Positions 20,085-61,766 of a stretch of DNA of 64,000 nucleotides are shown piece after piece (the stretch's first letter is position 1; every line of letters begins with the position of its first letter). The notes under the pieces were generated by a model that worked only from the letters and a program-made list of their open reading frames with translations, ran no database searches and was not told the DNA's origin. Location of the stretch: positions 186,001-250,000 of the forward strand of contig NZ_AUFF01000001.1 of the NCBI RefSeq assembly GCF_000426365.1, in the 5' to 3' direction. The DNA is from Arenimonas composti TR7-09 = DSM 18010. Its GTDB lineage: Bacteria > Pseudomonadota > Gammaproteobacteria > Xanthomonadales > Xanthomonadaceae. The translations under genes were made by a program, and so were the position numbers.

Positions 20085-21488
20085 TCAGACGAGGCCGGTA
20101 GCGTAGAACACCCCGATGATCACGAACACCGCCAACGTCTTGATCACGGTGATCGCGAAGATGTCCTTGTAGGCCTGGCGGTGGGTGAGGCCGGTGACCG
20201 CGAGCAGGGTGATCACGGCGCCGTTGTGGGGCAGGGTGTCCATGCCGCCGCTGGCCATCGAGGCGACGCGGTGCAGCACTTCCATCGGGATGCCGGCGGC
20301 GTTGGCGTTGGCGATGAACACGTCGGCCATCGCCGCGAGCGCGATGCTCATGCCGCCGCTGGCGCTGCCGGTGATGCCGGCGAGGGCGGTGACGGTGACG
20401 GCTTCGTTCACCAGCGGATCGGGGATCGCGCCGAGCACGTTGGCGACCACCAGGAAGCCGGGTAGCGCCGCGATCACCGCGCCGAAGCCGTATTCGCTGG
20501 CGGTGTTCATCGCCGCGAGCAGGGCGCCGGCGATCGCCGGCTTGGTCTGTTCGGCGAAGTGCGTGGTCACCGGCTTCCAGGCCAGCAGCAGCACCGCGAC
20601 GATGCCGGTCAGCAGCGCCGCCTCGACCGCCCAGATCGCGGCGATCTTCGGGATCTCCTGCACCACCGGCGCCGGCGAACCGATCACCGCCGGCACGAAG
20701 GAATGGCTGTCGCCGTACCAGCGCGGGATCAGCAGGGTGTAGACCTTGTTCGAGACGCCGACCAGCAGCAGCGGCAGCAGGGCGATGAAGGGATTGGCCA
20801 GCTTCTCGCCGGCGATCGCCGCCGGTTCGTTCAGCAGCTCGACGCCGGAGGCATAACCCTCGCCGGCGCGGGCCGCGGCCCGCCGCCGCCATTCCAGATA
20901 GGTCATGCCGAGCGCGAGGATGAAGACGCCGCCGAGCGTACCCAGCACCGGCGCCGCCCAGGCATCGGTGCCGAAGAAGCCGGCCGGGATGATGTTCTGG
21001 ATCTGCGGCGTGCCCGGCAGCGCGTCCATCGTGAAGGTGAAGGCGCCGAGGGCGATGGTGCCGGGGATCAGCCGCTTCGGGATATCGGCCTGGCGGAACA
21101 GCTCGGCGGCGAACGGGTAGACCGCGAACACCACCACGAACAGCGACACGCCGCCGTAGGTCAGCAGGGCGCAGACGACGACGATGGCCAGCATCGCGCG
21201 GCCGGCGCCGAACAGGCGGATGGTGGCGGCGACGATCGCCTTCGAGAAACCGGAAACCTCGATCAGCTTGCCGAAGATCGCGCCCAGCAGGAACACCGGG
21301 AAATACAGCTTCAGGAAGCCGACCATCTTGTCCATGAACAGGCCGGTGAACATCGGCGCGACCAGGGACGGATCGGTCAGCAGCACCGCGCCCAACGCAG
21401 CCACGGGGGCAAAAAGGATCACGCTGTAGCCGCGGTAGGCGACCACCATCAGGAACACCAGCGCGGCGAGCACGATCAGGAAGGACAT
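20085..21488 (-). CDS. GntP family permease, probable 3-hydroxybutyrate importer
   Basis: 467 residues with about 12 membrane helices, a size and pattern typical of the GntP gluconate/citrate-type transporters. MSFLIVLAALVFLMVVAYRG opens it; GKLIEVSGFSKAIVAATIRL, TYGGVSLFVVVFAVYPFAAE and SASGGMSIALAAM match the family. GntP members move small hydroxy acids with protons. Divergent from the TonB receptor and close to 3-hydroxybutyrate genes, so 3-hydroxybutyrate is the likely substrate (inference). The start at 21488 lacks a strong ribosome-binding site. Confidence 0.8.
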   Translation of the reverse strand: MSFLIVLAALVFLMVVAYRGYSVILFAPVAALGAVLLTDPSLVAPMFTGLFMDKMVGFLKLYFPVFLLGAIFGKLIEVSGFSKAIVAATIRLFGAGRAMLAIVVVCALLTYGGVSLFVVVFAVYPFAAELFRQADIPKRLIPGTIALGAFTFTMDALPGTPQIQNIIPAGFFGTDAWAAPVLGTLGGVFILALGMTYLEWRRRAAARAGEGYASGVELLNEPAAIAGEKLANPFIALLPLLLVGVSNKVYTLLIPRWYGDSHSFVPAVIGSPAPVVQEIPKIAAIWAVEAALLTGIVAVLLLAWKPVTTHFAEQTKPAIAGALLAAMNTASEYGFGAVIAALPGFLVVANVLGAIPDPLVNEAVTVTALAGITGSASGGMSIALAAMADVFIANANAAGIPMEVLHRVASMASGGMDTLPHNGAVITLLAVTGLTHRQAYKDIFAITVIKTLAVFVIIGVFYATGLV

Positions 21489-21561
21489 TCGATGAACCCC
21501 GGTTCCGCCGGCACTTCCGACGGGTGGGGCGAGTGTCGGCGCGGCGGCGGCCGCGGCCACT

Positions 21562-21606
21562 TGTACCAAGGTACAGGTGCCCGCCCGCGCGGCCCCAGCA
21601 TAGATT
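21562..21606 (+). promoter_or_regulatory. Divergent control region: palindromic operator and TonB receptor promoter
   Basis: TGTACC-AA-GGTACA (21562-21575) is a perfect 6-2-6 palindrome, with CAC...GTG outside it after one mismatched pair. Its centre is about 32 bp upstream of TAGATT (21601-21606), a likely -10 box of the TonB receptor gene, where a class II activator would sit. It is also 74 bases upstream of the permease. The dehydrogenase promoter at 30951-30994 has the same GTAC-N4-GTAC core and nearly the same spacing. The LuxR-type regulator at 31990 is the natural candidate to bind it (inference). Confidence 0.6.
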
Positions 21607-21653
21607 GCGCCGCAACACGGCCGTCCGGCCGCGCGTCCGCATGAGGGGAAAAC

Positions 21654-23894
21654 ATGAAGCGCAACCACCTGAGCCGGGCGATCGCCCTGTCCCTTTCGCT
21701 GGCCTCGCTGGGCGTGGCCGCGCAGGAGGCGCCGCGCCCGGCCGACGAGGCGACGATGCTCGACGAGGTCGAGGTCACCGCCCGCCGCCGCACCGAGTCG
21801 CTGCAGGACGTGCCGGTGGCGGTGAGCGCCTTCGGCGAGAACGCGCTGCGCGACCTGCAGGCGACCAGCGTCGAGGGCCTGCAGGGCGCGGTGCCCAACA
21901 TGAACATCGTGCAGGGCCGCGGCAGTTCGAACTCGGTCAACGTCTTCATCCGCGGCATCGGCCAGCCGGACGCGCTGCAGACCTTCGATCCCGGCGTCGG
22001 CATGTACGTCGACGACGTCTACTACTCGCGCATCAACGGCGCCCTGTTCACCCTGTTCGACGTCGCCCAGGTCGAAGTGCTGCGCGGCCCGCAGGGCACG
22101 CTCTACGGCCGCAACTCGACCGGCGGCGCGATCAAGCTGACCACGAAGAACCCGTTCGACGACGCCGGCGGCGCCGTCGAGGCCACCGTCGGCGAATTCG
22201 GCCGCCGCGACGGCCGCGCCTACTTCGGCCAGGCCTTCAGCGACACCGTCGCCTTCAGCCTCGCCGCGGCCTCGACCCACATGGACGGCTACGTCGAGGA
22301 CCCGGTCACCGGCATCGACTACAACGGCGAGGACACCAACGCGATCCGCGCCAAGCTGATGTTCCGCCCGTCCGACGACCTCAGCGTGACCTTCAGCGTC
22401 GACTGGACCGACCAGGACAACGCGCTGACCCTCGGCCGCCCGACCGCGCCGCTGTACGCCACCGACTTCCTGTTCGGCCAGGTGCTGCTGATGCCGGCGC
22501 CGACCGGCGTCTACGACTTCCGGAGCCGCACCTCGTTCGCGCCCGACCAGGGCCAGGAGATGACCCACAAGGGCTTCTCGGCGCACGTCGACTGGACGCT
22601 GTCGGACACCTGGCGCTTCAAGTCGATCAGCGCCTGGCGCTCGCTCGAGACCGCGTCGTTCATCGACATCGACGGCTCGCAGTTCCAGCTCGGCGACGTG
22701 CTGGTGGCGATCGACCAGGACCAGTTCAGCCAGGAATTCCAGTTCCAGTACGACAACGGCGACGACCTGCAGGCGGTGTTCGGCCTGTACTACCTGCGCG
22801 AGAACGTGCCCTCGCACCAGGAAGCCTATGCCGACGACTTCCTGCGCTGGGGCGGGGTGCCGCTGACCTTCCTGCGCACGATCGACGACGATCTCGAGAA
22901 CACCTCGCTGGCGGCCTTCGCGCACATGAGCTGGGAGTTCGCCCCGAGCTGGAACCTGTCGGCCGGCCTGCGCTGGAGCCGCGACCAGAAGGACTACTGG
23001 CGCACCACCTCGACGTTCTCGAACCTGGCCCTGCTCGCGGCCGACCCGCAGCTCGAGTTCGAGATCGACGATTCCTGGAGCGCGTGGACGCCGTCGCTGA
23101 GCCTCGAGAAGCACTTCAGCGACGAGGTGATGGCCTACTTCTCGGCCAACCGCGGCTACAAGGCCGGCGGCTTCAACGGCCGCGCCAATTCCGCGACCGA
23201 GATCAGCACCTTCGACCCCGAATACGTCTGGACCTACGAGCTCGGCCTGAAGATGCAGTCGGCCGACGGCCGCCTGCGCGGCAACATCGCCGCCTTCCAC
23301 AGCGCCTACCGCGACTTCCAGGCGCGCGTGTCCGAGGTGCAGAACCCGGGTGCGCCGATCCCGACCTTCGCGTTCCCGGTGCTCAACGCCGCCGAGCTGA
23401 CGATCAACGGCATCGAGTTCGAGGGCAGCGCGCTGCTCGGCGAGTCCACCCTGCTGAGCACCCAGCTCGGCTGGATGAGCGCCGGCTACGACCGCTTCGA
23501 CGACCCGCGCGTCGCGGTCGATCCGACCCTGGCCAGCCTGCACGACCACGTGCCGTTCTCGCCGGACTTCACCGCCCGCATCGCCCTGCAGCACGGCTTC
23601 GACTTCGCCAACGGCAGCCGCCTGACCGTCGGCGGCGACGTCTCGCATCGCAGCGCGGTGTCGCTGACCGTCGACAACCGCCCGAACCTGCGCCAGTCGG
23701 CCTACACGCTGTTCGGCCTGTGGGGTGCGTGGTCGTCGCCGGAGCAGCGCTGGGAAGTGCGCGGCGGCGTGCGCAACCTCAGCGACGAGGTCTACATGAC
23801 CGAGGGCCAGGAGTTCTCGAGCATCGGCAACATCCAGACCGCGTACTACGGCATGCCGCGCAACTGGTACCTGTCGGTCCGCTACAACTTCTGA
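21654..23894 (+). CDS. TonB-dependent outer membrane receptor
   Basis: 746 residues with a signal peptide (about 1-23, ending VAAQ). The plug domain (about 35-160) starts with a TonB-box-like DEVEVTARR and contains LRGPQGTLYGRNSTGGAI. The 22-strand barrel ends in WYLSVRYNF, with the C-terminal Phe needed for BAM-dependent insertion. Such receptors import large or scarce ligands using TonB energy. Next to a PHB depolymerase and 3HB genes it may take up hydroxybutyrate oligomers (inference). AGGGG precedes the ATG. Confidence 0.9.
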   Translation: MKRNHLSRAIALSLSLASLGVAAQEAPRPADEATMLDEVEVTARRRTESLQDVPVAVSAFGENALRDLQATSVEGLQGAVPNMNIVQGRGSSNSVNVFIRGIGQPDALQTFDPGVGMYVDDVYYSRINGALFTLFDVAQVEVLRGPQGTLYGRNSTGGAIKLTTKNPFDDAGGAVEATVGEFGRRDGRAYFGQAFSDTVAFSLAAASTHMDGYVEDPVTGIDYNGEDTNAIRAKLMFRPSDDLSVTFSVDWTDQDNALTLGRPTAPLYATDFLFGQVLLMPAPTGVYDFRSRTSFAPDQGQEMTHKGFSAHVDWTLSDTWRFKSISAWRSLETASFIDIDGSQFQLGDVLVAIDQDQFSQEFQFQYDNGDDLQAVFGLYYLRENVPSHQEAYADDFLRWGGVPLTFLRTIDDDLENTSLAAFAHMSWEFAPSWNLSAGLRWSRDQKDYWRTTSTFSNLALLAADPQLEFEIDDSWSAWTPSLSLEKHFSDEVMAYFSANRGYKAGGFNGRANSATEISTFDPEYVWTYELGLKMQSADGRLRGNIAAFHSAYRDFQARVSEVQNPGAPIPTFAFPVLNAAELTINGIEFEGSALLGESTLLSTQLGWMSAGYDRFDDPRVAVDPTLASLHDHVPFSPDFTARIALQHGFDFANGSRLTVGGDVSHRSAVSLTVDNRPNLRQSAYTLFGLWGAWSSPEQRWEVRGGVRNLSDEVYMTEGQEFSSIGNIQTAYYGMPRNWYLSVRYNF

Positions 23895-23897
23895 TCC

Positions 23898-24947
23898 ATG
23901 CGATTTCCCCGGGGAATGTCCCAACGGGCCGCAGCAGCGGCCCGTCTTTTCTTCCCGCTCCTGCTGCTGGCCGGCTGCGGCCGCGAACCGGCGCCGGCGC
24001 TGCCGGCGCTGGTGATCGATCCGGACCGCGTCGCCGTCGCCGGACTGTCGTCGGGCGCGTACATGGCCACCCAGGTGCACCTGGCGTTCTCCGACCGCCT
24101 GCGCGGTGCCGCGCTGGTCGCCGGCGGGCCCTACGGCTGCGCGGTCGGCACGCTGCAGATCGCCCTCGGGTCCTGCATGCAGGGCGCGCCGGCGCCGGAT
24201 CTCGCGGCGCTGGCACAGCGCGTGCGCGAACGCGCCGACCGCGGTGCGCTCGCGCCGCTCGACGGATTGCGCGGCGACCACGTCTTCGTGCTGCACGGCC
24301 GCGACGACACCACGGTCGCGCCGGCGCTCGGCGCCGCGGCGGCCGATCTCTATGCCGAACTCGGCGGCGACGGGCTGGCCCTGCAGCGCGATTTCGAACG
24401 CGGCTTCGCCCACGTCTGGCCGACCGTCGACCGCGGCGGCGACTGCGGCGAGCCGGCGGCGCCCTGGCTCGGTGCCTGTGGCTTCGACGCGGCCGGCGCC
24501 GCGCTCGCCTGGCTGTACGGTCCGCCTTCGCGCGACGCCGCGGCGGGCACCGGCGGCGAACTGCGCGAGTTCGACCAGACCGTGTTCGCCGCCGACGGGT
24601 CCGGCTCGCCGCAGCTCGCCGACCGCGGCTTCGCCTACGTACCGAAGGCCTGCGCGGCCGGCGAAGCCTGCGGCCTGCTGGTGGTCTTCCACGGCTGCGA
24701 GCAGAGCGCGGTGCAGGTCGGCAACGTGTTCGCCCGCGACGCCGGCTTCAACCGCTGGGCCGACGTCTACGGACTGGTGGTCCTGTATCCTCAGGTGCAG
24801 CCGTCGTGGCTGCCGCTGAATCCGAAAGCATGCTGGGACTGGTGGGGCTATACGGGCGCCGACTACGACACCCGTGCCGGAGCGCAGGTGGGGTGGGTGG
24901 GGCGGGTGATCGACACGCTCGCCGCGGCGGGTGGGGGCGCGCGCTGA
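23898..24947 (+). CDS. Lipoprotein PHB depolymerase-family esterase (type 2 catalytic domain)
   Basis: 349 residues. Lipoprotein signal peptide with lipobox LAGC (Cys27), so probably tethered to a membrane. The lipase box VAGLSSGAYMATQVHLAF gives Ser51 as nucleophile; HGRDDTTVAP holds the probable Asp and FAHVWPT the probable His. GGPYGCAVGTL and FHGCEQSAVQVGN are typical of short-chain-length polyhydroxyalkanoate depolymerases. It would cut poly(3-hydroxybutyrate) outside the cell. It starts 3 bases after the TonB receptor stop. A terminator-like hairpin lies inside its signal-peptide codons. An internal ATG (codon 7) is an alternative start. Confidence 0.85.
   Translation: MRFPRGMSQRAAAAARLFFPLLLLAGCGREPAPALPALVIDPDRVAVAGLSSGAYMATQVHLAFSDRLRGAALVAGGPYGCAVGTLQIALGSCMQGAPAPDLAALAQRVRERADRGALAPLDGLRGDHVFVLHGRDDTTVAPALGAAAADLYAELGGDGLALQRDFERGFAHVWPTVDRGGDCGEPAAPWLGACGFDAAGAALAWLYGPPSRDAAAGTGGELREFDQTVFAADGSGSPQLADRGFAYVPKACAAGEACGLLVVFHGCEQSAVQVGNVFARDAGFNRWADVYGLVVLYPQVQPSWLPLNPKACWDWWGYTGADYDTRAGAQVGWVGRVIDTLAAAGGGAR
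23924..23953 (+). terminator. Terminator/attenuator inside the start of the depolymerase gene
   Basis: ACGGGCCGC (23924-23932) and GCGGCCCGT (23937-23945) form a perfect 9-bp stem with an AGCA loop, followed by CTTTTCTTC. It meets the criteria of an intrinsic terminator 30 bases after the TonB receptor stop, yet it lies within codons 9-17 of the depolymerase signal peptide. No in-frame start codon exists between the hairpin and the lipobox. Ribosomes starting the depolymerase would melt it, so it could attenuate depolymerase expression relative to the receptor. Confidence 0.6.
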
Positions 24948-24957
24948 ACCTTCGGTG

Positions 24958-25113
24958 CGAGAAACGAGAAACGAGGAACGAGGAACGGGAGAGGGCTCGC
25001 GCTGCGCGCGGATGGCGGCGGTCGCAGGGCCTCACTCTTCACTCGTGCGCAGTACGTCCGCGCCGAAGGCGCGGGCTGTCACTCGTTTCTCGTTCCTCGT
25101 TTCTCGTTTCTCG
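24958..25113. repeat. Long inverted repeat A, 32-bp simple-repeat arms
   Basis: Left arm 24958-24989 and right arm 25082-25113 pair over 30 of 32 bases. The arms are made of 7-base units CGAGAAA and CGAGGAA. The 92-base spacer is GC-rich and contains GGCTCGCGCTGCGCGC. It fills the gap between the depolymerase stop and the kinase. As RNA it would form a long hairpin. No open frame or transposase. Inverted repeats at 31836-31986 and 61128-61257 have the same plan but different arm sequences. Confidence 0.8.
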
Positions 25114-25115
25114 AA

Positions 25116-25141
25116 GCATCGCGCCTGAAGGCGCTCCTGCA
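25116..25141 (-). repeat. REP-like palindrome, diverged copy
   Basis: On the minus strand the 26-base unit differs from the copies at 28475 and 32641 at three positions. Two of these are a compensatory pair, GCGCC...GGCGC instead of GCGGC...GCCGC, so the hairpin stem is preserved. It directly abuts the right arm of inverted repeat A and lies just upstream of the kinase start. Confidence 0.7.
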
Positions 25142-25161
25142 GAGGTGAGGGGGGCGGCGGC

Positions 25162-28100
25162 GTGTTGACGGGCTCCGTCGTCGTGCTCGCCGGGCTGGCG
25201 TGGCTCGGGCTGCTGTTCGGGACCGCGTTGTGGGCGGAGCGGCGGCCGGCGCTGATGCAGCGGCACTGGCCGGTCGTGTACAGCCTGTCGCTGGCGGTCT
25301 ACTGCACGTCATGGACCTTCTTCGGCACCGTGACGCAGGCGCAGCGCTCGGGCTGGCCGATTCCACCGACCTTCGTCGGCACGATCCTGCTGTACGTGCT
25401 CGGTTTCGGTTTCCTGCGCGAGCTGCTGCGGCTGGCGCGCGAGCACCATTCGACCTCGCTCGCCGACCTCATCGCCACCCGGCTCGGGCGCAGTTCCTGG
25501 CTCGCGGCGGCGGTGACCTTCGTCGCGGTGATCGGCATCGTTCCCTACATCGCGCTGCAGCTGAAGGCGGTGGCGATGAGCTTCGGCCTGCTGACCCGCG
25601 CCAGCGACCTGACGCCGCCGCCGTGGCAGGACAGCGCGCTCTACATCGCGCTGGCGATGGCGCTGTTCGCGATGCTGTTCGGCACGCGTCGGGCCTCGGC
25701 CGCCGAGCACAACCGCGGCCTGGTGCTGGCGATGGCCGCCGAGTCGCTGCTCAAGCTCGGGGCGATGCTGGCGCTGGGGGTGTTCGTCTGGTTCGGGCTG
25801 GAACTGCCGGCTTCGCCACCGCCGTTGCCGGCGCCGGAAGGGGCGGGTGGTTTCCCGGCGCTGGTACTGCTCGGTGCGCTGGCGATGTTCACGCTGCCGC
25901 ACCAGTTCCACGTCGGCGTCGTCGAATGCCGCAGCGAACGGCAACTGCGCACGGCGCGCTGGCTGTTCCCGCTGTACATGCTGGCGATCGCGCTGCCGGT
26001 ACTGCCGCTGGCGCGCGCCGGCGACGCGCTGCTGGCGCCGCTGGGCGTGCCGTCCGACCTCTACGTGCTGGCGTTGCCGCTGTCGCAGGGCCACGACGCG
26101 CTGGCCCTGCTGGCCTTCCTCGGCGGCCTCAGCGCCGCCACCGGCATGGTGATCATCTCGACGCTGGCGCTGAGCGTGATGATCGGCAACCACTGGCTGG
26201 CGCCGCTGCTGGTGCGCGGGCGCTGGGCCGCCGCCGGGGCCGACCTGCGCCCGGCGCTGCTGATCCAGCGCCGCATCGGCATCATCGCGGTGGTGCTGCT
26301 GGCCTGGGTCTACAGCCGCGCGATCGCCGGCAACGACGCGCTCGCCGACATCGGCGCGCTGTCGTTCTCCGGACTGGCGACGCTGGCGCCGGCGGTGGCG
26401 TTCGCGGTGTGGCGGCCGGCGACGCCGGCGCGGGCGGTGCTCGCCGGCCTCGTGGTCGCGGTGGCGCTGTGGTTCTGGGTGCTGATGCTGCCGCCGTTCG
26501 CGGAAGCCGCCGGCGTTTCGTCGCCGTGGCTGCGCGAAGGCCCGTTCGGGATCGCGTGGCTGGCGCCCGACGGCATGTTCGGCCTCGAGGGCTGGAGCCG
26601 GATCGCGCGCGCGAGCGTGCTCAGCCTGGTCGCCGCGACCCTGGTGACCTCGCTGCTCGCCGCCCGCCTCGGCGATGCCCCGGGCCGGGTCGGCGATGCG
26701 CTGTCGCCGGAGGTGCTGCGCGAGGTCGCCGGGCGCTTCCTGCCGGCGGTGAAGGTGGAGTCGCTGCTCGCCGGCGCGGACGATCCGGAGCGCGCGAAAG
26801 CCGCCGGCGAACGCGTCGAACGCGAACTCGGCGCGGTGCTCGGCGCCGCCTCGGCGCGGCTGCTGCTCGACGCCGCCCGCCGCGAGCCGGGCCGCGACCT
26901 CGACACCGTCGCGACGATCGTCGGCGAAGCCTCGCAGGCGCTGCGCTTCAACCAGCGCGTGCTCGAGGCGGCGCTGGAGAACATGGACCAGGGCATCAGC
27001 GTCGTCGACGCCGAGCTGCGCCTGGTCGCCTGGAACCGACCCTACGCGGAACTGTTCGACTACCCGCCGGAACTGCTGCGGGTCGGGGTGCCGGTCGCCG
27101 ATCTGGTGGCCTGCAACGTCCGCCGCGGCCTGGCCGGCGCCGGTGACGCCGAACGCGAGGTCGGCAAGCGCATCGACCACATGCGCGCCGGCACGCCCTA
27201 CGTCGCCGAGCGGCGCTTCCCGCCGGACCGCGTCATCGAAATCCGCGGCAACCCGATGCCCGGCGGCGGCTTCGTCGCGACCTTCACCGACGTCACCGCA
27301 TTCCGTGCCAACGAGGCGGCGCTCAAGTCCGTCGCCGAGACGCTGGAGCAGCGCGTCGCCGAACGCACCGCCGAACTCGCCGGCGCCAAGGCCGAGGCCG
27401 AGCGCGCCAACCGCGCGAAGACCCGCTTCCTCGCCGCGGTCAGCCACGACCTCGCGCAACCGCTGAACGCCGCGCACCTGTTCGTGCATGCGCTGGCGCC
27501 GAAGCTGGTCGAGGAGGAGCACCGCGCCGCGCTCGCCAACATCGACGGCGCACTGGGTTCGGCGGAGACCCTGCTCGCCGGCCTGCTCGACATCTCGCGG
27601 CTCGATGCCGGCGGCCTGGAGCCGGCGCTGCAGACCTTCCGCATCGACGAACTGCTGGCCGGCCTGCTCGGCGAGTTCGGCGTGCTCGCCGACGACCGCG
27701 GCCTGCGCCTCGACGGCGTGCGCTGCACCGCCTGGGTGCGCAGCGATCCGCAGCTGCTGCGGCGGGTGCTGCAGAACTTCCTCGGCAATGCGCTGCGGCA
27801 CACGCGCCGGGGCCGCGTGCTGGTCGGCTGCCGGCGCCGCGGCGAGCGGCTGGCGATCGAGGTCTGGGATACCGGCCCCGGCATCGCCGAGGCGGACCGC
27901 GCCGCGATCTTCGAGGAGTTCCGTCGCCTCGACCGCGGCGGCCAGGGCCTCGGCCTCGGGCTGGCGATCGCCGACCGCATCGCCCGCCTGCTGCAGCACC
28001 CGCTGCGGCTGCGCTCGTGGCCCGGCGCCGGCAGCGTGTTCGCGATCGAGGTGCCGCTGGCGGCGCCGGTCGCGGCCGCGCCGGCACCGGCGCCGATCCC

Positions 28101-28479
28101 GGTACCGGCGACGCCGCGCTGCCGCGTGCTCGTCGTCGACAACGACGCCGACGTGCTGCGCGGCATGCAGGCACTGCTGCAGGGCTGGGGCAACGACGTG
28201 ATCGCCGCCGGCGATGCCGACGAGGCGCTGCGCCGCGCCGCCGAGGGCGCATCACCGGATCTGCTGCTGCTCGACTACCACCTCGGCGGCGGCGCCACCG
28301 GCCTGCAGCTGCGCGAACGGCTCGTCGCCGCCGGCGTCACCGCGCCCTGCGTGATCATCACCGCCGACCACGCCGCCGATGTCCGGGGCGCGGTCGCGGA
28401 AGCCGGCTGCGTCCTGCTGCACAAGCCGCTGCGCCCACTGGCCCTGCGCTCCGCCATGGCGCGCCTGGTCCAAATGTAG
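25162..28479 (+). CDS. Hybrid histidine kinase with sodium/solute symporter sensor domain (CrbS/MxtR type)
   Basis: 1105 residues. An SSF (SLC5-like) domain with about 13 membrane helices spans about 1-490 (TSWTFFGTVTQAQRSGWPIP). A PAS-like domain follows (about 605-720), then a coiled linker. HisKA has the H-box AVSHDLAQPLNAAHLF (His762). An HATPase domain (DTGPGI near 900) and a C-terminal receiver (LLLLDYHLGG, Asp1038) complete it. This layout is that of CrbS/MxtR, which pairs with a LuxR-type regulator to control acetate-type carbon use. The partner is probably the gene at 31990. GTG start; the TAG stop lies inside a REP palindrome. Confidence 0.88.
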   Translation: MLTGSVVVLAGLAWLGLLFGTALWAERRPALMQRHWPVVYSLSLAVYCTSWTFFGTVTQAQRSGWPIPPTFVGTILLYVLGFGFLRELLRLAREHHSTSLADLIATRLGRSSWLAAAVTFVAVIGIVPYIALQLKAVAMSFGLLTRASDLTPPPWQDSALYIALAMALFAMLFGTRRASAAEHNRGLVLAMAAESLLKLGAMLALGVFVWFGLELPASPPPLPAPEGAGGFPALVLLGALAMFTLPHQFHVGVVECRSERQLRTARWLFPLYMLAIALPVLPLARAGDALLAPLGVPSDLYVLALPLSQGHDALALLAFLGGLSAATGMVIISTLALSVMIGNHWLAPLLVRGRWAAAGADLRPALLIQRRIGIIAVVLLAWVYSRAIAGNDALADIGALSFSGLATLAPAVAFAVWRPATPARAVLAGLVVAVALWFWVLMLPPFAEAAGVSSPWLREGPFGIAWLAPDGMFGLEGWSRIARASVLSLVAATLVTSLLAARLGDAPGRVGDALSPEVLREVAGRFLPAVKVESLLAGADDPERAKAAGERVERELGAVLGAASARLLLDAARREPGRDLDTVATIVGEASQALRFNQRVLEAALENMDQGISVVDAELRLVAWNRPYAELFDYPPELLRVGVPVADLVACNVRRGLAGAGDAEREVGKRIDHMRAGTPYVAERRFPPDRVIEIRGNPMPGGGFVATFTDVTAFRANEAALKSVAETLEQRVAERTAELAGAKAEAERANRAKTRFLAAVSHDLAQPLNAAHLFVHALAPKLVEEEHRAALANIDGALGSAETLLAGLLDISRLDAGGLEPALQTFRIDELLAGLLGEFGVLADDRGLRLDGVRCTAWVRSDPQLLRRVLQNFLGNALRHTRRGRVLVGCRRRGERLAIEVWDTGPGIAEADRAAIFEEFRRLDRGGQGLGLGLAIADRIARLLQHPLRLRSWPGAGSVFAIEVPLAAPVAAAPAPAPIPVPATPRCRVLVVDNDADVLRGMQALLQGWGNDVIAAGDADEALRRAAEGASPDLLLLDYHLGGGATGLQLRERLVAAGVTAPCVIITADHAADVRGAVAEAGCVLLHKPLRPLALRSAMARLVQM

Positions 28480-28500
28480 GAGCGGCTTCAGCCGCGATGC
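28475..28500 (+). repeat. REP-like palindrome overlapping the kinase stop codon
   Basis: A 26-base unit beginning TGTAGGAGCGGC and ending CCGCGATGC. Its inner stem is GCGGCT-TC-AGCCGC. It is identical to the left copy of the pair at 32641. The TAG of TGTAGG is the stop codon of the histidine kinase, so the element supplies the end of that gene. Confidence 0.8.
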
Positions 28501-28542
28501 CTTTCTTGCAGGCCAGCGACCGCGCGGACCCCCTCCCGCCAC

Positions 28543-29007
28543 CTATTGCAGGTCGCGCGCCTCTCCGACCCAGATCGCGACCCCATGCACCCGCTCCTGC
28601 GTCGTCGGAATGCCGACCCCGACACCGACGCCGCCGTGGCGGCCGTAGTTGCCGCCGCCGACCGACAGGCCGACGGGGGAGGCGTCGCGGCCGCGACCGA
28701 GCAGCAGTACGCCGTTGGCGCCGAGTTTCGCGGCCTCGCTGCGCAGGCGGGCGAGGGCGGCCTCGCGCTGGCCGGCGGTGCCGAAGCCGGCGCCGCTGCG
28801 GGCCTCGATCTCGGCGATGTCGATCGCGCCGGGCGGGCGTTCGGTATAGATCCGCACCGTCGCCGGTTCGACCGGCGGACGCGCGGCGCCGAGCATGTGC
28901 GTCGACACCCCGGCGCAGGCGGTGAGCGCGAGCAGCACCAACGGCAGCAGCCGCCGCGCGGCGAAGGCGCGGGTGGGCGGGAACAGGGAAGCGGTAGACA
29001 TGGTCAT
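28543..29007 (-). CDS. Lipoprotein of unknown function
   Basis: 154 residues. Signal peptide with lipobox near LALTAC, Cys at about residue 29. The mature part has TVRIYTERPPGAIDIAEIEA and AALARLRSEAAKLGANGVLL, which recalls YajI/DUF4156-like outer-membrane lipoproteins that report 'genes of unknown origin'. A Gly-rich stretch (VGGGNYGRHGGVGVGVGI) follows and the protein ends GVAIWVGEARDLQ. ATG 29007 is chosen because GGAGG lies six bases upstream on this strand; an in-frame ATG two codons later is possible. It sits between the kinase and the oligomer hydrolase; a link to PHB use is not evident. Confidence 0.65.
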   Translation of the reverse strand: MTMSTASLFPPTRAFAARRLLPLVLLALTACAGVSTHMLGAARPPVEPATVRIYTERPPGAIDIAEIEARSGAGFGTAGQREAALARLRSEAAKLGANGVLLLGRGRDASPVGLSVGGGNYGRHGGVGVGVGIPTTQERVHGVAIWVGEARDLQ

Positions 29008-29070
29008 CGCGCACCTCCAGCAGGTGCCGGCAGTCTCACCCCGGCCGCGTGAACGACGAAGAACGGGAAA

Positions 29071-29139
29071 AACGGTGCCCGGCACCGTTAAGCCGACTTA
29101 ACCGTGCCCGGCACCGTCTTTACCGTGCCCGGCACCGTT
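29071..29139. repeat. Three GGTGCC-C-GGCACC palindromes, two forming the oligomer hydrolase C-terminus
   Basis: Copies lie at 29071-29089 (perfect 9-1-9 palindrome), 29100-29118 and 29121-29139. The last two are tandem 21-base units and are read as NGAGHGK and DGAGHG followed by the TAA stop of the hydrolase gene. So a mobile or amplified palindrome appears to have rewritten the 3' end of that gene. Confidence 0.75.
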
Positions 29140-30915
29140 TTGGGCGGCGGGTGGCAGCGCTTCGCCGTCGGCGATGCGCGCCCACATCGCATCGAGCGCG
29201 CGGTAGGCCACCGGCAGCAGCGGCTGGTAGCGGCCGGTCCAGAAGGGCAGCGCGACGAAGGCGTCGAAGTGCTGCGCGCCGGCGACCGGCCAGTACACGA
29301 CCTCGCGGCCGGCGCCACCGGCCCAGTTCGCATAGGCGCCGCCGCTGAAGGCCGCCGGGATCAGGCCGTCGTCGAGGCCGTGCACGACCAGCACCGGGCG
29401 ACCGGCGGCGGGCAGCGCCGCGCGGGTCCCGTCGATGCCGGCGATCAGCGCGGCATCGCCGGCGTCCCAGAGCTGGCGCAGGCAGCGCAGGCCGGGCAGC
29501 AGCGGATCCTCGCCGCCGGCGAGGCCGTCGACGATGCCGACGCCGGCGCCGGGCGGGATGCCCGAGGCGTCGCTCCACCAGGCCGCGCGCATCGCCGCGG
29601 TCGCCGCGGTCGGCTTGCCGGCGGCATCGACGGTGGTGAAGCCGTAGCCGCAGGGCATCGGCTCGTCGCCGCTGCGCGAATACGCGGCGGCGTAGGTGAC
29701 GTTCACCGAGCGCCACAGGTCGAAGGCGGTGCTGAGGTCGGCGGCGGCGATCGCGGCGTCGGTCCAGCCGCGCTCGCGCAGGTGCCGGCGCGCCGCTTCG
29801 GCCTGCGCCGCCGGCTCGCTTTCGCTGATCTCGCCGGAAGCCGCCAGCGCGGCGCAGCGCAGCGCGCCCGCCGGTGCCGGCGCGCCGCCGGGGCGCACCA
29901 GGGCCAGCCCGTCGTAGGCGCTGGCATTGAGCGCGCAGGGCAGCCAGATCGCCGCCTCGGTCGAGTAGTCGTAGAGCGCGCGGCCACCGTTGCCGGCGAG
30001 CACGTTCGGCGAGATCGCGACGACGCCGTCGAGCCAGTCGCCGTCGAGCTCCGCCGCGCGCAGCACCGCACCGCCGCCGTTGGAGACACCCACCGCGATC
30101 ACCGTGGCGTCGGCGGCCAGTGCATCGCCATAGCGCTCGCGGAGCACCCGCTGCGCGAAGGCCGCGGCCTGGCGCACATGCCGGCCCCAGTCGGCTTCCG
30201 GGTTGTCGCCGGAATGCGCGTGCTTGACGCGGATGCCGTCGCCGCCGGTCGGTGCGAACTCGACCGGCTCGCCGGTCGCGGCGCGGCGGCCGTCGAGACC
30301 GGTGCCGATCCCGTCCGCGGCATCGACGTAGCCGGTGCCGGTGCCCTTGTCGGTGTGCGCGACCGCACAGCCGCGCGGCAGGCCCCAGGCGCCGGCGAGG
30401 GCGATCGCGCCGTAGATGCCGCGCGAGCCGGAGGAGGCGGTGACGACGACGCAGGGCTTCGCCGGATCGAAGGCGTCCGGCAGCTGCACGAGCACGCGGT
30501 GCGGCTGCGCGCGGCCGGGCAGTTCGACGAAGGCCTGGAACTCCTCGCCGGGCACCGCGGCGAAGCTGCCGTAGTCGCGGCCGTAGGCGCTGCCGGGCGA
30601 CAGGTCGGCGATGCCGCGCCAGTTGCTCCAGATCGCGCGCCGGCGCAGTTCCTGCGCGGTCGGCGCTTGCGCATCCGCGAAGGCCGGCGGGGTCGCCGCG
30701 CGCAGGCCGGCTTCGCCGAGGCCGGCGCTCAACAGGTCGTCGCCGTCGCGGTGGACCGTGTGCCGGATCGTCGCCGCGGCGACGGCGGGATCGCCGGCAG
30801 GCGCCGGCGTTGCGGCGGCGACGAGGTCGGCCGGCGCGGCGGAATTCAGCGAGGCGCAGCCGGCGAGCAGGGCGGCGGCGATGGCGGCGGGCAGGAGGCG
30901 GCTGATCGGGTTCAT
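29098..30915 (-). CDS. Lipoprotein 3-hydroxybutyrate-oligomer hydrolase
   Basis: 605 residues. Lipobox LAGC with Cys20, so anchored to a membrane and exported. The mature protein matches the D-(-)-3-hydroxybutyrate oligomer hydrolase family (PF10605): RRAIWSNWRGIADLSPGSAY, VVVTASSGSRGIYGAI, AVAHTDKGTGTGY and the nucleophile elbow VGVSNGGGAV (Ser278). It would cut soluble 3HB oligomers to monomers. The last 14 residues (NGAGHGKDGAGHG and flank) are encoded by palindromic repeats. It is divergent from the dehydrogenase and 36 bases from the shared palindrome. Confidence 0.9.
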   Translation of the reverse strand: MNPISRLLPAAIAAALLAGCASLNSAAPADLVAAATPAPAGDPAVAAATIRHTVHRDGDDLLSAGLGEAGLRAATPPAFADAQAPTAQELRRRAIWSNWRGIADLSPGSAYGRDYGSFAAVPGEEFQAFVELPGRAQPHRVLVQLPDAFDPAKPCVVVTASSGSRGIYGAIALAGAWGLPRGCAVAHTDKGTGTGYVDAADGIGTGLDGRRAATGEPVEFAPTGGDGIRVKHAHSGDNPEADWGRHVRQAAAFAQRVLRERYGDALAADATVIAVGVSNGGGAVLRAAELDGDWLDGVVAISPNVLAGNGGRALYDYSTEAAIWLPCALNASAYDGLALVRPGGAPAPAGALRCAALAASGEISESEPAAQAEAARRHLRERGWTDAAIAAADLSTAFDLWRSVNVTYAAAYSRSGDEPMPCGYGFTTVDAAGKPTAATAAMRAAWWSDASGIPPGAGVGIVDGLAGGEDPLLPGLRCLRQLWDAGDAALIAGIDGTRAALPAAGRPVLVVHGLDDGLIPAAFSGGAYANWAGGAGREVVYWPVAGAQHFDAFVALPFWTGRYQPLLPVAYRALDAMWARIADGEALPPAAQNGAGHGKDGAGHG

Positions 30916-30950
30916 CGCCCGAAGATACCGCCCGCGCGCGGGGCCGGCAT

Positions 30951-30994
30951 CGTACCTTCGTACGTCGCGGGCGCCGCGCTGCCGCTGCTAGCGT
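30951..30994 (+). promoter_or_regulatory. Divergent control region: second GTAC-N4-GTAC palindrome and dehydrogenase promoter
   Basis: CGTAC-CTTC-GTACG spans 30951-30964 without an overlap of half-sites. Its centre is about 32 bp upstream of TAGCGT (30989-30994), the likely -10 box. The core and the spacing match the site at 21562-21606. It lies between the oligomer hydrolase (minus) and the dehydrogenase (plus), so it could control both. Confidence 0.55.
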
Positions 30995-31022
30995 GCCGGC
31001 ATCGAATCTTCAGGAGGCGGCG

Positions 31023-31832
31023 ATGGCCGACACCTTCCTCGCGGGCCGCAGTGCCCTGGTCACCGGCGGCACTTCGGGCATCGGCCTGGCGATCGCGCGT
31101 GCGCTCGGCGGTGCCGGCGCCGCGCTGGCGATCAACGGCCTCGGCTCGCGCGAGCAGATCGAGGCCGCGCTCGCCGCGGTGCGCGAGGCCGGGGCGCCGT
31201 CGGCCCGCCACTTCGGCGCCGACCTCACGTCGGCGACCGCGATCGAGGCGATGTGCGGCGAACTGGCGGCGACCGCCGCGCCCGACATCGTCGTCAACTG
31301 CGCCGGCGTGCAGCACACCGCGGCGCTCGCCGACATGCCGGCGGCGACCTGGGACACGATCATCGCGGTCAACCTCAGCGCCGCGTTCCACACGATGCGG
31401 CTGGCGATGCCGGCGATGGCCGCGAACGGCTACGGCCGGGTGATCAACATCGCCTCGGTGCACGGCCTGGTCGCGTCGGTGCAGAAGGCGCCGTACGTGG
31501 CGAGCAAACACGGCCTGATCGGGATGACCAAGGTCGCGGCGCTGGAATACGCCCAGGCCGGTTCGCGCGACTCCGGCGGCGTCACCGCCAACTGCATCTG
31601 CCCGGGCTGGGTCGAGACGCCGCTGATCGAGCCGCAGATCGCCGCCCGCGCCGCCGCCGTCGGTGGCGACCGCGACGCCGGCGTGCGCGAACTGCTGCGC
31701 GAGAAGCAGCCCAGCGGCCGCATGTGCCTGCCCGACGAGATCGCGGCCGTGGTGCTCTGGCTCTGCCGGCGCGAGGCGCACAACCTGACCGGCGCGGCGA
31801 TTCCGGTCGACGGGGCCTGGACCGCGCAATAG
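31023..31832 (+). CDS. 3-hydroxybutyrate dehydrogenase (SDR family)
   Basis: 269 residues, a classic short-chain dehydrogenase. The nucleotide-binding motif is TGGTSGIG (residues 14-21), NCAG is at 92-95, and the catalytic Ser145, Tyr158 and Lys162 lie in SVHGLVASVQKAPYVASKHG. The HGLVAS and CICPGWVETPLIEPQI segments are typical of D-3-hydroxybutyrate dehydrogenase, which oxidises 3-hydroxybutyrate to acetoacetate with NAD. AGGAGG precedes ATG 31023. It is the catabolic endpoint of the locus and the last gene before inverted repeat B. Confidence 0.92.
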   Translation: MADTFLAGRSALVTGGTSGIGLAIARALGGAGAALAINGLGSREQIEAALAAVREAGAPSARHFGADLTSATAIEAMCGELAATAAPDIVVNCAGVQHTAALADMPAATWDTIIAVNLSAAFHTMRLAMPAMAANGYGRVINIASVHGLVASVQKAPYVASKHGLIGMTKVAALEYAQAGSRDSGGVTANCICPGWVETPLIEPQIAARAAAVGGDRDAGVRELLREKQPSGRMCLPDEIAAVVLWLCRREAHNLTGAAIPVDGAWTAQ

Positions 31833-31835
31833 CGG

Positions 31836-31986
31836 AGTTCGTAGTTCGTACGAGGTACGAGGTAGTTAAGTCCGGCGGCTGGAAGGGGGCGTTCCTGCCT
31901 GCGATTTCGCGAGCAGGGAGTCGACGATTCCTGCAAGATCGCGCTGGAAACGACCACTACCTCGTACCTCGTACGAACTACGAACT
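31836..31986. repeat. Long inverted repeat B, perfect 31-bp arms
   Basis: Arms 31836-31866 and 31956-31986 are perfectly complementary, separated by 89 bases. The arms are built from short units GTTCGTA and CGAGGTA. It fills the gap between the dehydrogenase stop (31832) and the regulator start (31990), so the right arm reaches the ribosome-binding region of the regulator. It could end the dehydrogenase transcript or fold over the regulator start. Same plan as repeats A and D. Confidence 0.85.
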
Positions 31987-31989
31987 GGA

Positions 31990-32631
31990 ATGAAGCTAGT
32001 CATCGCCGACGACCACCCGCTTTACCGGCTCGCGCTGACGCAGGCCGTACGCGGCGTGCTGCCGGAGGCGGAGCTCACCGAGGTGGAGGACATGCCGGCG
32101 GTGTTCACCGCGCTCGCCGCGGCGCCGGACACCGACCTCGTGCTGCTCGACCTGCACATGCCCGGCAGCCACGGCCTGATGGGCCTGGCGTCGCTGCGCG
32201 CCGAACATCCCGGCGTCGCGGTGGCGATGATCTCCGCGCACGAGGAACCGGCGACGATCCGCCGCGCGCTCGCCTACGGCGCCGCCGGTTATCTCACCAA
32301 GCGCGCCGATCTCGCCGAACTGCAGGCCGGCCTGCGCGCGGTACTCGCCTGCGAGGTGTGGCTGCCGCCGTCGCTGCGCGACGCGGTGGCGGCGGCGCCG
32401 GCCGATCCCGGCGACAGCGACACCGCCGCCCGCCTCGCCAGCCTCAGCCCGCAGCAGTTCAAGGTGCTCACCCGCGTCGCCGAAGGCCGCCTCAACAAGC
32501 AGATCGCCGACGAGCTCGGCATCCAGGAACGCACCGTCAAGGCGCACATGAGCGCCATCTTCGAGAAGCTCGGCGTCCGCAATCGCACCCAGGCCGGGGT
32601 GCTGCTCGGCCAGCTCAGCCTGGACCGCTGA
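31990..32631 (+). CDS. LuxR/NarL-type response regulator (CrbR/ErdR type)
   Basis: 213 residues. Receiver domain (1-120) with acidic pair DDHPLY, phospho-acceptor Asp54 in LVLLDLHMPG and a conserved Lys near TKRA. The LuxR HTH (about 150-210) contains LSPQQFKVLTRVAEGRLNKQ and QERTVKAHMSAIFEKLGVRN. This is the usual partner of SSF-type hybrid kinases. It probably activates the PHB genes through the palindromes at 21562 and 30951 (inference). The ATG has only a weak TGGA upstream, next to the arm of inverted repeat B. Confidence 0.9.
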   Translation: MKLVIADDHPLYRLALTQAVRGVLPEAELTEVEDMPAVFTALAAAPDTDLVLLDLHMPGSHGLMGLASLRAEHPGVAVAMISAHEEPATIRRALAYGAAGYLTKRADLAELQAGLRAVLACEVWLPPSLRDAVAAAPADPGDSDTAARLASLSPQQFKVLTRVAEGRLNKQIADELGIQERTVKAHMSAIFEKLGVRNRTQAGVLLGQLSLDR

Positions 32632-32639
32632 GCACCGCA

Positions 32640-32705
32640 CTGTAGGAGCGGCTTCAGCCGCGATGCTTTTCACGAAGAGCATCGCGGCTGAAGCCGCTCC
32701 TACAG
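32640..32705. repeat. REP-like inverted pair (REPIN), also a likely bidirectional terminator
   Basis: Two REP units face each other as perfectly complementary 28-bp arms, 32640-32667 and 32678-32705, with a 10-base loop TTTCACGAAG. The unit is the same as at 28475. It lies between the convergent regulator and membrane-protein genes, 8 bases after the regulator stop, so it probably ends or protects both mRNAs. Confidence 0.85.
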
Positions 32706-32725: not shown

Positions 32726-34126
32726 TTACTCGCTCTTCCAGAACAGGATCCGCCACGGATCCGGCGGGTCCTCGCCATGATTGCGCGGCAGGCGGCCGAC
32801 GGTCAGTTCGTGGCGGCCGCGCGGCAGATCGGCGATCGGCAGCATCGCGACCAGGCCGCGCTGTCCGGTGCGCGGATCCTCGCCGGCATCGAAGGGCACC
32901 GCGACCGGTTCGCCGTCGATCGCCAGCAGGTGCAGGCGCGCCAGGCAGTCCAGGCGCTCGCGCCAGTACTTCGCGCGTTCCTGCCGGCGCGCTTCGCGTT
33001 CCTGCCGACGCCGCTCGCGCCCGGCTTCGGCAGGTTCGCCGGCATCGGCCGTCGCGTCGGGTTCCGATGAGGTCGGCTCGGCAATCGCGCAGTCCCTGGC
33101 GACGAACTCGTCGTGGCGGGTCGGGATGTAGGGAATGAACAGCGGCAGCCAATCCCCCGCGATGATTCGCGACGGGATGTGTGGCGGCGGCACCAGCTGG
33201 ATGACGTCGCCACGCTGGTCGTCGTAATGGTCGGCCTTCACCAGCGACGCGACGCCGAAACCATCCGGCGGAAGCCCCGCGCCGATGCGCAGTCCCAGTC
33301 CCATCCGGCTGCCGACCGTCTGCCCCAGCACGATCGTGAAGACGACGACCGCGACCACGGTGATCAACACGGCGGTGCGCCGGCTGCCCGCGTGGCTGGA
33401 GAACAGGGTGAGCAGCGGATTGCCGGAGCCGGAGAAGCCGATCTTCGCGTAAAGGTCGAACAGCCGCTGCATGCGCCGTTCCTGCGGGCTGCCGGGAACC
33501 AGACCCGCACCCGCACGCCGGTCCCACTGCACGAGCACCGCGAACAGGATCGCCACGATGCCGAACGCTCCGAGCACCACGAACAGCAGCGTCTGGCCGC
33601 CGCCTTCGCCACCCGACAGCGCCCAGCGTGCCCAGATCGCCACCATCATCAGGCTGACGATCAGCATCGGCACGAACATCACCGTGGCCAGGCCGACACC
33701 GACGCCGAACACCAGGCTCGCGCGGTTGTCGGCGCGTTCGATCAGCGTGGACATGTCGGACAGGTCCGCGTGGACCCGCCGGAAGTACTGCGGCCCGAGC
33801 CGTTCGCGCATCCGGTCCCAGCGCACACCCTCGGGATAGACCGAATGCAGGCCGACGAGGGCCACCCAGTAGCCGCGCGTCACCAGATGCAGCAGGAAGG
33901 TCGCGATCAGCGTCAGCAGCGCGAACTTGACGTAGATCCACAGCGGCAGCGACAGCGCCGCGAGGTCGGGCAGCGTGTTGTTGTAGAAACCGAACAGCAG
34001 CCGGTCGACCTGGTCCGGCAGCTGCAGCAGGCTGAACACCGTCGCGCCGGAGATCAGCAGTTCCATCTCCCAGGTGGGCGTGGTCCGCTTCGGCAGCTGC
34101 CGCGGGTCGTCGCTCGCTTCGGTCAT
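32726..34126 (-). CDS. Multipass membrane protein of unknown function
   Basis: 466 residues. About six membrane helices: two near 50-90, two at 140-180, one near 185-205 and one near 265-285. A large soluble part follows, with IPSRIIAGDWLPLFIPYIPT and a charged coiled stretch RERRRQEREARRQERAKYWR (about 375-395). It ends in a beta-rich domain (GRHELTVGRLPRNHG). I do not recognise the family. Stand-alone gene, convergent with the regulator. Confidence 0.7.
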   Translation of the reverse strand: MTEASDDPRQLPKRTTPTWEMELLISGATVFSLLQLPDQVDRLLFGFYNNTLPDLAALSLPLWIYVKFALLTLIATFLLHLVTRGYWVALVGLHSVYPEGVRWDRMRERLGPQYFRRVHADLSDMSTLIERADNRASLVFGVGVGLATVMFVPMLIVSLMMVAIWARWALSGGEGGGQTLLFVVLGAFGIVAILFAVLVQWDRRAGAGLVPGSPQERRMQRLFDLYAKIGFSGSGNPLLTLFSSHAGSRRTAVLITVVAVVVFTIVLGQTVGSRMGLGLRIGAGLPPDGFGVASLVKADHYDDQRGDVIQLVPPPHIPSRIIAGDWLPLFIPYIPTRHDEFVARDCAIAEPTSSEPDATADAGEPAEAGRERRRQEREARRQERAKYWRERLDCLARLHLLAIDGEPVAVPFDAGEDPRTGQRGLVAMLPIADLPRGRHELTVGRLPRNHGEDPPDPWRILFWKSE

Positions 34127-61127: not shown

Positions 61128-61257
61128 TTGGATAAGAGAAGAAGTGATGGGTGAGAAATAAGAAGTAGGGGAGGCGCGCGCTTCGCGCGAACGGCCAGCC
61201 GCCGCGTCGCCGATTCACTACTTCTTGTTTCTTACCCACTACTTCTTATTTCTCATT
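61128..61257. repeat. Long inverted repeat D, imperfect arms of AAGAAGTA units
   Basis: Left arm about 61128-61170 and right arm about 61214-61257 pair imperfectly (roughly four bases in five, with small gaps). Units are AAGAAGTA and GGGTGAGAAAT. The 43-base spacer contains GCGCGCGCTTCGCGCGAAC, similar to part of the spacer in repeat A. It fills the gap between the deacetylase and the convergent gene at 61272. AT content is far above the surroundings. Confidence 0.7.
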
Positions 61258-61271
61258 CGTTACTTGTCTTC

Positions 61272-61766
61272 TCAGAAGGGTCCCCACCCGTTAACCCGCG
61301 CGACCAGCTCCCCGCGCCGCGCCTCGCCCAGCCGCCGATGCCAATGCGCGATCAGATACGGATGCTGCGTCGGTTCGAAGCCCGCCGCCATGTCGACTTC
61401 CCAGGCCCGCGCATCGCCGCAGTAGCCGAAGAAGGCCTCGCAGCGGTCGGCGAACTTGGCGAAGGTCCAGCGCAGGGTCTGCAGGTAGAGGCCGCCGGCG
61501 GCGCGGATGCGTTCGGCCTGGTCCGCGGCCAGGCGCGCGAAGGCGCGGCCGTCGGTGGCGGCACCGCCGATCAGGCCGACGTCGTCGCGCAGCCACAGGT
61601 GCACGTAGTTGGCGGCAACGAACACGCCTTCGGCCGGGCGCAGGAAGGCGATGACGTGGTGTTCGAAGTCGGGCGGCTCGGCGGCGAACTTGCGGCGGAA
61701 GATCGGCGCCGCGAATGCCGGGTCGTCCACTTCGGTGATAATCACGAGGTCGTCCAGGCGGTCCAT
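61272..61766 (-). CDS. Conserved hypothetical protein
   Basis: 164 residues, soluble. [60 protein letters not shown] and [20 protein letters not shown] are the recognisable blocks. No signal peptide or known catalytic motif. The start at 61766 is preferred over an in-frame ATG 25 codons upstream, which would overlap the divergent YciI gene region. Its stop touches the end of inverted repeat D. Confidence 0.65.

Follow-up and report, generated by a model that had tools for sequence, protein, structure and literature searches.

To our knowledge, little is known about the way in which bacteria detect insoluble polyesters in their surroundings and commit to using them, and a locus of Arenimonas composti TR7-09 (DSM 18010) raises this question in a concrete form. 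The window, the whole stretch of 64,000 nucleotides that we analysed (contig NZ_AUFF01000001.1, positions 186,001 to 250,000), had been described in a first-pass annotation as holding seven genes for the use of poly(3-hydroxybutyrate) (PHB) and 3-hydroxybutyrate (3HB) within 12.5 kb. All seven, a permease, a TonB-dependent receptor, a depolymerase, a hybrid histidine kinase, an oligomer hydrolase, a 3HB dehydrogenase and a LuxR-type response regulator, are present at 20085-32631 on the strands given. Our analysis indicates that the locus probably serves to scavenge PHB and its oligomers from outside the cell as one regulon, under the control of an SLC5-type kinase and a LuxR-type regulator of its own, a pair that forms a sister line of the acetate system CrbS/CrbR.

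Conservation of the locus in related genomes

We examined 120 genomes of the genus, the family and the order, that of A. composti included. The oligomer hydrolase was found in 79 and the kinase N-terminus in 92, the latter count including an acetate-type paralogue. From 75 of the 78 relatives carrying the hydrolase we fetched 76 hydrolase loci (G011, G017 and G033, each with a hydrolase match, were left out); because the fetched stretches often end before the more distant genes, the counts of neighbouring genes are lower bounds. The regulator is present in at least 65 of the 76 loci, the kinase (pieces included) in at least 50, a dehydrogenase-like short-chain dehydrogenase/reductase (≥35% identity) in at least 45, the TonB receptor (≥26%) in at least 42 and the permease in at least 27. 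In 11 further cases the kinase lies outside the hydrolase stretch, in some on another contig of a draft genome, and in all 11 the receptor and the permease adjoin it, the depolymerase being beside it in four. From these co-occurrence counts the constant parts are a hydrolase-regulator unit and a kinase-receptor-permease unit, and the depolymerase is optional. Where gaps between kinase and regulator were read in some relatives, by eye only, they held no constant further gene.

Genera in which the locus or its kinase half occurs include Arenimonas, Aquimonas, Lysobacter, Luteimonas, Pseudoxanthomonas, Thermomonas, Rhodanobacter, Dyella and Wenzhouxiangella. The co-occurrence that the first-pass annotation had proposed to look for is thus found across the order, and this recurrence of the gene set shows that the arrangement is not due to chance. 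A pair lying apart from the PHB genes was not found in close relatives, although in the 11 split loci the kinase is separated from the regulator. Among 369 genomes drawn from the class, 10 have the hydrolase (E 1e-20), and in one genome from beyond the order (G405) the locus is complete apart from a depolymerase match.

The importers vary more. Across the loci L039-L141 the receptor at the same place is 58-71% identical to that of the window in some loci and 26-39% in most, while permeases are 76-94% or 33-43% identical, which suggests repeated replacement of the importers under a single operator.

A palindrome shared by the two divergent promoters

The palindrome GTACC(A/T)(A/T)(G/C)GTAC stands in both divergent promoters of the locus, one between the permease and TonB receptor genes and the other between the oligomer hydrolase and dehydrogenase genes. 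A search for GTACCWWSGTAC with at most one mismatch found only these two places in the 64 kb (four strand matches; shuffled sequences gave a mean of 0.12, and none of 100 reached four). The pattern TACYWWNGTA occurs only at the same two places in the whole 3.16 Mb genome (2 + 1 strand matches, with 4 + 5 for the reversed control pattern). In 89 relatives' loci (1.58 Mb) it was found at 66 places versus 23 for the control, and 64 of the 66 fall in the hydrolase or the permease/receptor promoters. Five of these places (L040, L062, L126, L127 and L140) were first classed as lying elsewhere and are counted as inside the same promoters by their context; the site of L140 stands before the permease, which there runs with the receptor. 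The remaining two come from genomes without a kinase match, and their stretches contain no regulator and no kinase.

A matrix was trained on 27 Arenimonas sites only (the motif places L123 and L124 had been omitted from the first matrix) and tested on other genera at the 99% background threshold (8.8). It detected a site in 26 of 28 receptor/permease gaps with a kinase; upstream of the hydrolase it found one in 36 of 49 regions where the stretch includes a regulator, versus 2 of 11 where it does not. Of the two regulator-less positives, one has its regulator cut by a contig end (L055, which counts as lacking it) and the other has the kinase half elsewhere. In the 11 split loci a site is present in every kinase half, with scores from 21.5 to 31.6, and in nine hydrolase halves. 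None of the five hydrolase loci that lack the regulator-kinase pair has a site upstream of the hydrolase. The locus of G405 (L297), in a genome of another order that has the pair, carries sites in both promoters, with scores of 29.4 and 15.0, and the receptor-side site is strong (22.6) in L259, a metagenome-assembled genome of unassigned order that also has the pair. Thus the pair is tied to the PHB genes, as the first-pass annotation had held, by the presence of the regulator with the hydrolase, by the receptor and permease beside the detached kinase and by a palindrome common to both promoters.

Its core, ACYWWNGT, is the core of the CrbR ACTU motif, the inverted repeat with which we compared it as given in the available part of PMC5715377; the outer base differs.

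A palindrome is also found before the regulator of L303 (G391; score 16.9), which has a 50% identical kinase, a regulator with the helix QLRT and a TonB receptor and lacks the hydrolase. L303 is possibly a further branch with another substrate, and L127 (G055) holds a similar pair.

An acetate-type paralogue with a different DNA site

Many of the relatives carry a second kinase, 41-45% identical to that of the window, which has a regulator and acs close by in 6 of the 11 loci of this kind that were fetched. To compare the sites at acs we used 54 genomes, namely 53 of 108 with an acs match plus G003, where acs is in pieces, and assigned the kinase classes by hand from match counts. Both kinds of kinase are present in 24 of the 54. 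A palindrome of the GACC type (GACC..GGTC) stands at acs in 23 of these 24 genomes and in all three with the acetate type only, compared with 3 of the 21 with the PHB type only and 1 of the 6 with neither. Thus, each motif goes with its own pair, that at acs with the acetate-type pair and that of the PHB promoters with the PHB pair.

The regulators differ together with the sites. The recognition helix begins with RT(V/I)KAH in 64 of 64 PHB-locus regulators and with EAT(V/I)KAH in 7 of 7 acetate-type ones, and EAT is also found in three more regulators (L257, L258 and L279). Among the 31 named PHB-locus regulators, 30 read ERT and the remaining one is unreadable by the pattern.

A. composti itself departs from this division in one respect. 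Its genome contains no match to the acetate-type kinase or regulator, and the only full-length homologue of the window kinase there is the kinase itself. Upstream of its acs, GTTCCTTGGTAC stands 63-74 bp from the start; the genome has four such places with one mismatch or none, and one more of these is in apparent coding sequence. The other 20 genomes with only the PHB-type kinase have no PHB-type palindrome at acs. The acs of G118 scores 13.0, but its site is of the GACC type. Because it is unique among the 21 genomes of its class, we treat the site at the A. composti acs as a possible local rewiring. For the same reason we rejected a general rule by which the PHB pair replaces acetate control after loss of the acetate kinase. 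The Dyella locus L237, considered as a case of both pairs together, was dropped after its second regulator proved to be a different one.

The kinase and its transporter-like domain

The Pfam domains of the kinase are PAS_7, HisKA, HATPase and receiver. Its first 600 residues have no Pfam match, and Pfam SSF was found in only 1 of 19 homologues, so the SSF label given in the first-pass annotation needed testing. The N-terminal half matches PDB 10ED, with 2e-49 as a single sequence and 1e-91 when a profile built from 19 homologues is used; according to PMC13022988 this entry was deposited as the SLC5-STAC portion of CbrA from Pseudomonas. A structural model (predicted local distance difference test score 85, predicted template modelling score 0.88) has Foldseek matches to SGLT2, CHT1, NIS, SMCT1, SiaT and vSGLT. 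These two matches indicate that the protein is a genuine SLC5 (SSF)-type hybrid kinase and that the label is right. The phmmer alignment to the CbrA SLC5-STAC part reaches residue 555, poorly in its last part, and no STAC model matched. The NahK/ErcS-type C-terminus model NF041832 scores 399.9 bits, just below its cut-off of 400.

In a FastTree tree of 45 kinases the acs-linked kinases (11 from the order) and seven others, Pseudomonas ones included, form one group, with the window kinase outside it. The PHB-side members nearest the acetate side are the kinases of L119 and L259, both of which adjoin PHB genes. Recent duplication inside the order is not supported, as the acs-linked kinases of the order group with those of Pseudomonas in this unrooted tree.

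For the pocket comparison, in a kinase set that includes a few duplicates (two copies of the same genome), the histidine-pocket positions of CbrA, as given in the part of PMC13022988 at hand, were transferred through the phmmer alignment. The F71 position is I, L, V or M in 71 of 71 PHB-type kinases, F or Y in 11 of 11 acetate-type kinases of the order and F in 6 of the 7 others. At Y75 the PHB type has F in 68 of 71, while Tyr is found in all 11 acetate-type kinases and all seven others. At F248 the PHB type has mostly Ala, the acetate-type kinases of the order have F (11 of 11) and the other seven have M, A, L or V. S53 is replaced by T in all 71 PHB-type kinases and in 6 of the other 7, but all 11 acetate-type kinases of the order have S there; Y51 is H in 26 of the 71 PHB-type kinases. 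The Na2-site lysine is kept in 89 of 89. The smaller residues at two to three pocket places would fit a C4 hydroxy acid better than acetate; as read from aligned residues, these changes only make a non-acetate ligand plausible.

Genes, predicted operators and genomic surroundings

The features of the locus are collected in Table 1.

Table 1 Genes and predicted operators of the PHB locus, in positions of the window
Feature	Position	Strand	Basis
GntP-family permease, probable 3HB importer	20085..21488	-	homology to annotated proteins
Operator 1, CACTTGTACCAAGGTACAGGTG palindrome between the divergent permease and TonB receptor genes	21558..21579	.	kept in relatives
TonB-dependent outer membrane receptor, probably for 3HB oligomers	21654..23894	+	PF00593, PF07715
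Lipoprotein type-2 PHB/short-chain-length polyhydroxyalkanoate depolymerase, 3 bp past the receptor	23898..24947	+	NF050059
SLC5-type hybrid histidine kinase, PHB-locus branch of CrbS-like kinases, 1105 aa	25162..28479	+	
Lipoprotein 3HB-oligomer hydrolase	29098..30915	-	PF10605
Operator 2, GCATCGTACCTTCGTACGTCGC, between the divergent oligomer hydrolase and dehydrogenase genes	30947..30968	.	kept in relatives
3-hydroxybutyrate dehydrogenase	31023..31832	+	NF009093
LuxR-type response regulator, CrbR/ErdR-like, recognition helix QERTVKAH	31990..32631	+	receiver + GerE

The permease has no Pfam or NCBIfam match and is about 73% identical to Azospirillum proteins annotated as GntP family permease; a homologue adjoins a 3HB dehydrogenase in both plasmids inspected, one of Azospirillum and one of Cupriavidus, from other proteobacterial classes. 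In the Cupriavidus plasmid the two genes are accompanied by a sigma54 regulator. The receptor matches PF00593 at 2.5e-41 and the Plug domain at 9e-17. The depolymerase scores 312.5 bits with NF050059 (polyhydroxyalkanoate depolymerase, extracellular catalytic domain type 2), above the cut-off of 280; its residues 34-337 align with PDB 2d80, the GxSxG, Asp and His of type 2 are present, and Ser51, Asp137 and His172 align with the presumed catalytic triad of that structure. No separate substrate-binding domain was found in the depolymerase beyond its 2d80-like part. The oligomer hydrolase matches PF10605 with an E value of 2.2e-117 (393.6 bits, gathering cut-off 27). For the dehydrogenase, whose open reading frame opens at 30993, we chose the ATG at 31023 behind AGGAGG; it scores 266 bits with NF009093 (cut-off 258) and 273.6 with TIGR01963, below the cut-off of 307.

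That both hydrolases are lipoproteins, as first annotated, is supported by the lipobox LLAGC in their sequences. Among the relatives, a simple pattern finds a lipobox-like string in 57 of the 76 oligomer hydrolases and in 16 of the 20 depolymerases. The genome has acs and a 3-oxoacid CoA-transferase pair (scoAB). A search confined to the PHB synthase family PF07167 gave no match in the genome (the Caulobacter control was positive), which makes an external source of the substrate probable.

Some neighbouring features were noted on their own account. A small predicted lipoprotein is encoded between kinase and hydrolase (28543-29085, minus strand), with no family above threshold and no tblastn match in the fetched loci of relatives. 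A membrane protein at 32726-34126 (minus strand) has no Pfam or NCBIfam match; in 11 of the 17 fetched loci of the same genus a homologue (30-57% identical) comes next after the regulator, and in a few other loci one adjoins the hydrolase. Long inverted repeats lie at 24958-25113 and 31836-31986, preceding the kinase and the regulator respectively, and a weaker one at 61135-61272 (arms of 31-45 bases, 64-89 bases apart). The arms of the first two are built of degenerate 7-base units (CGAGAAA/CGAGGAA; GTTCGTA/CGAGGTA), and these two repeats resemble miniature inverted-repeat transposable elements or repetitive extragenic palindromic (REP) elements. Behind the regulator, a near-perfect hairpin (GTAGGAGCGGCTTCAGCCGCGATGC...) at 32640-32705 is also found before acs (L087) in the same genome, as in a REP-like family. 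About 15 kb from acs (C9:5311, L090) the genome encodes an olefin beta-lactone synthetase (NF045786, 1010 bits, cut-off 900).

A proposed dedicated switch for polyester scavenging

We infer the DNA binding, ligand, direction of control and transport substrates of the system as follows. The lipid-anchored hydrolases would cut PHB and its oligomers, the TonB receptor would take up oligomers and the permease would carry 3HB into the cell, where the dehydrogenase and the CoA-transferase would pass it to acetyl-CoA. At the inner membrane, the transporter-like domain of the kinase would sense a short hydroxy acid, most likely 3HB, and the kinase would phosphorylate the regulator. The phosphorylated regulator would then bind the GTACCWWGGTAC palindromes of both divergent promoters and turn on import, hydrolysis and oxidation together. 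The operator (GTACC versus GACC at acs) and the recognition helix (Arg versus Ala) would keep the PHB system apart from acetate control. As permease homologues stand beside 3HB dehydrogenases in the two plasmids from other classes, transport and oxidation are ordinary; the unusual part is the regulation and its link with lipoprotein hydrolases and a TonB receptor.

Several findings weigh against this interpretation. The first-pass annotation had spoken of a complete route, which was not supported: a depolymerase homologue was found in only 16 of the 76 hydrolase loci (a lower bound), and the CoA-transferase pair lies elsewhere in the genome. The palindrome pattern was first derived from the window's own two sites, and 13 of the 49 hydrolase upstream regions with a regulator lack an above-threshold site. 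In L259 the site on the side of the hydrolase is a weak one, at 8.2, and the helix of the regulator has ETT in place of ERT. The best NCBIfam match of the window regulator, ErdR NF041830, reaches 213.5 bits, below the cut-off of 390, and the kinase tree is unrooted, with a support of 0.784 for the acetate side. Finally, the one-mismatch site at the A. composti acs suggests that the system may also control acetate use there.

This last point, together with the standing of the window kinase as the only CrbS-like kinase of the genome and the small number of such near-matches, is what speaks for regarding the pair as the species' acetate CrbS/CrbR, placed among PHB genes by chance and with acs as its main target. 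We consider that improbable, given that 24 of 54 relatives carry a separate acetate-type kinase as well, that the acetate-type loci with regulator and acs nearby have another motif and another helix, that the remaining genomes with only the PHB type show no PHB-type palindrome at acs, and that the two exact sites of the genome are both in PHB promoters. Still less probable is that the palindrome belongs to another regulator, for instance a TetR- or GntR-type repressor, rather than to the response regulator of the locus. Symmetric operators are common and the binding proposed here is predicted, but the palindrome shares the ACTU core of CrbR, tracks regulator and kinase across split loci and into a genome of another order, and differs from that of the paralogous system in one base just as the recognition helix differs in one residue.

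A less remote alternative, though we think it unlikely, is that the main substrate is some different short ester or hydroxy acid (further polyhydroxyalkanoate monomers, acetoacetate or oligo-3HB from other cells) and PHB a minor one. The absence of the depolymerase from most fetched loci, where the oligomer hydrolase and regulator are kept, would agree with this, as would the missing substrate-binding domain and the divergence of most receptors from that of the window; PF10605, the 3HB dehydrogenase and a permease linked to such dehydrogenases nevertheless point to 3HB units.

Relation to known systems

The CrbS/CrbR (MxtR/ErdR) systems of Vibrio and Pseudomonas, which act on acetate, acs and actP, likewise combine an SLC5-PAS-HisKA-HATPase-REC kinase with a LuxR-type regulator. 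In P. putida, ErdR binds the promoter regions of scpC, pp_0354 and actP-I, with binding to acsA-I not detected, according to the available part of PMC8402216. The window kinase is 40-45% identical to these kinases, lies on a separate branch, is linked to PHB genes and differs in its pocket residues, as does its regulator in operator and helix. The description of the pair as CrbS/CrbR-like stands as to kind, though in the unrooted tree the kinase falls outside the acs-linked and Pseudomonas branch, and 24 of the 54 genomes carry both kinds. CbrA/CbrB has a regulator of a different type from that of the locus. Its kinase, a histidine transceptor of Pseudomonas (PDB 10ED), is likewise of the SLC5-STAC kind and shares the Na2-site lysine; its ligand is another one, and several pocket residues are replaced in the window kinase. 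In Sinorhizobium, RpuS/R is an SLC5/STAC kinase system that controls small-carboxylate use; in the available part of PMC9100948 it controls the gene of the pyruvate symporter MctP, with no polymer degradation.

The Cupriavidus plasmid has the same permease and dehydrogenase with a local regulator, but there the regulator is a sigma54 activator and no surface hydrolase or TonB receptor was seen in 9.4 kb. HbcR of Pseudomonas belongs to this kind of system as well. Polysaccharide utilisation loci of the SusCD kind also join a TonB receptor, lipoprotein hydrolases and a hybrid sensor. The first-pass annotation had likened the locus to these; we rejected the analogy because no SusD family, the defining part, was found among the scanned locus proteins, and here the substrate would be a polyester rather than a glycan and the kinase has a transporter domain. 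No SLC5-kinase system controlling PHB use was found described in the parts of the open-licence papers searched, which is no proof of absence in print. On present sequence comparisons, the pair is best read as a CrbS/CrbR-type system that is dedicated to PHB and 3HB scavenging and has an operator code of its own, and not as a system of a new kind.

It is conceivable, with chances we put slightly below even, that an old paralogue of the acetate CrbS/CrbR became a polyester-scavenging transceptor, its domain reshaped for 3HB, its operators and regulator re-coded by one base per half-site and an Ala/Arg exchange, and the two regulons running side by side in one cell; in the lineage of A. composti, which lacks the acetate pair, the PHB system would then have captured acs. 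For the order, sensor, regulator, operators, hydrolases and importers are predicted together, with the exact DNA site and residues. The two kinds of pair would form a natural set of paralogous two-component systems whose DNA codes appear to lie one base per half-site apart, and the PHB pair is a candidate 3HB/PHB biosensor.

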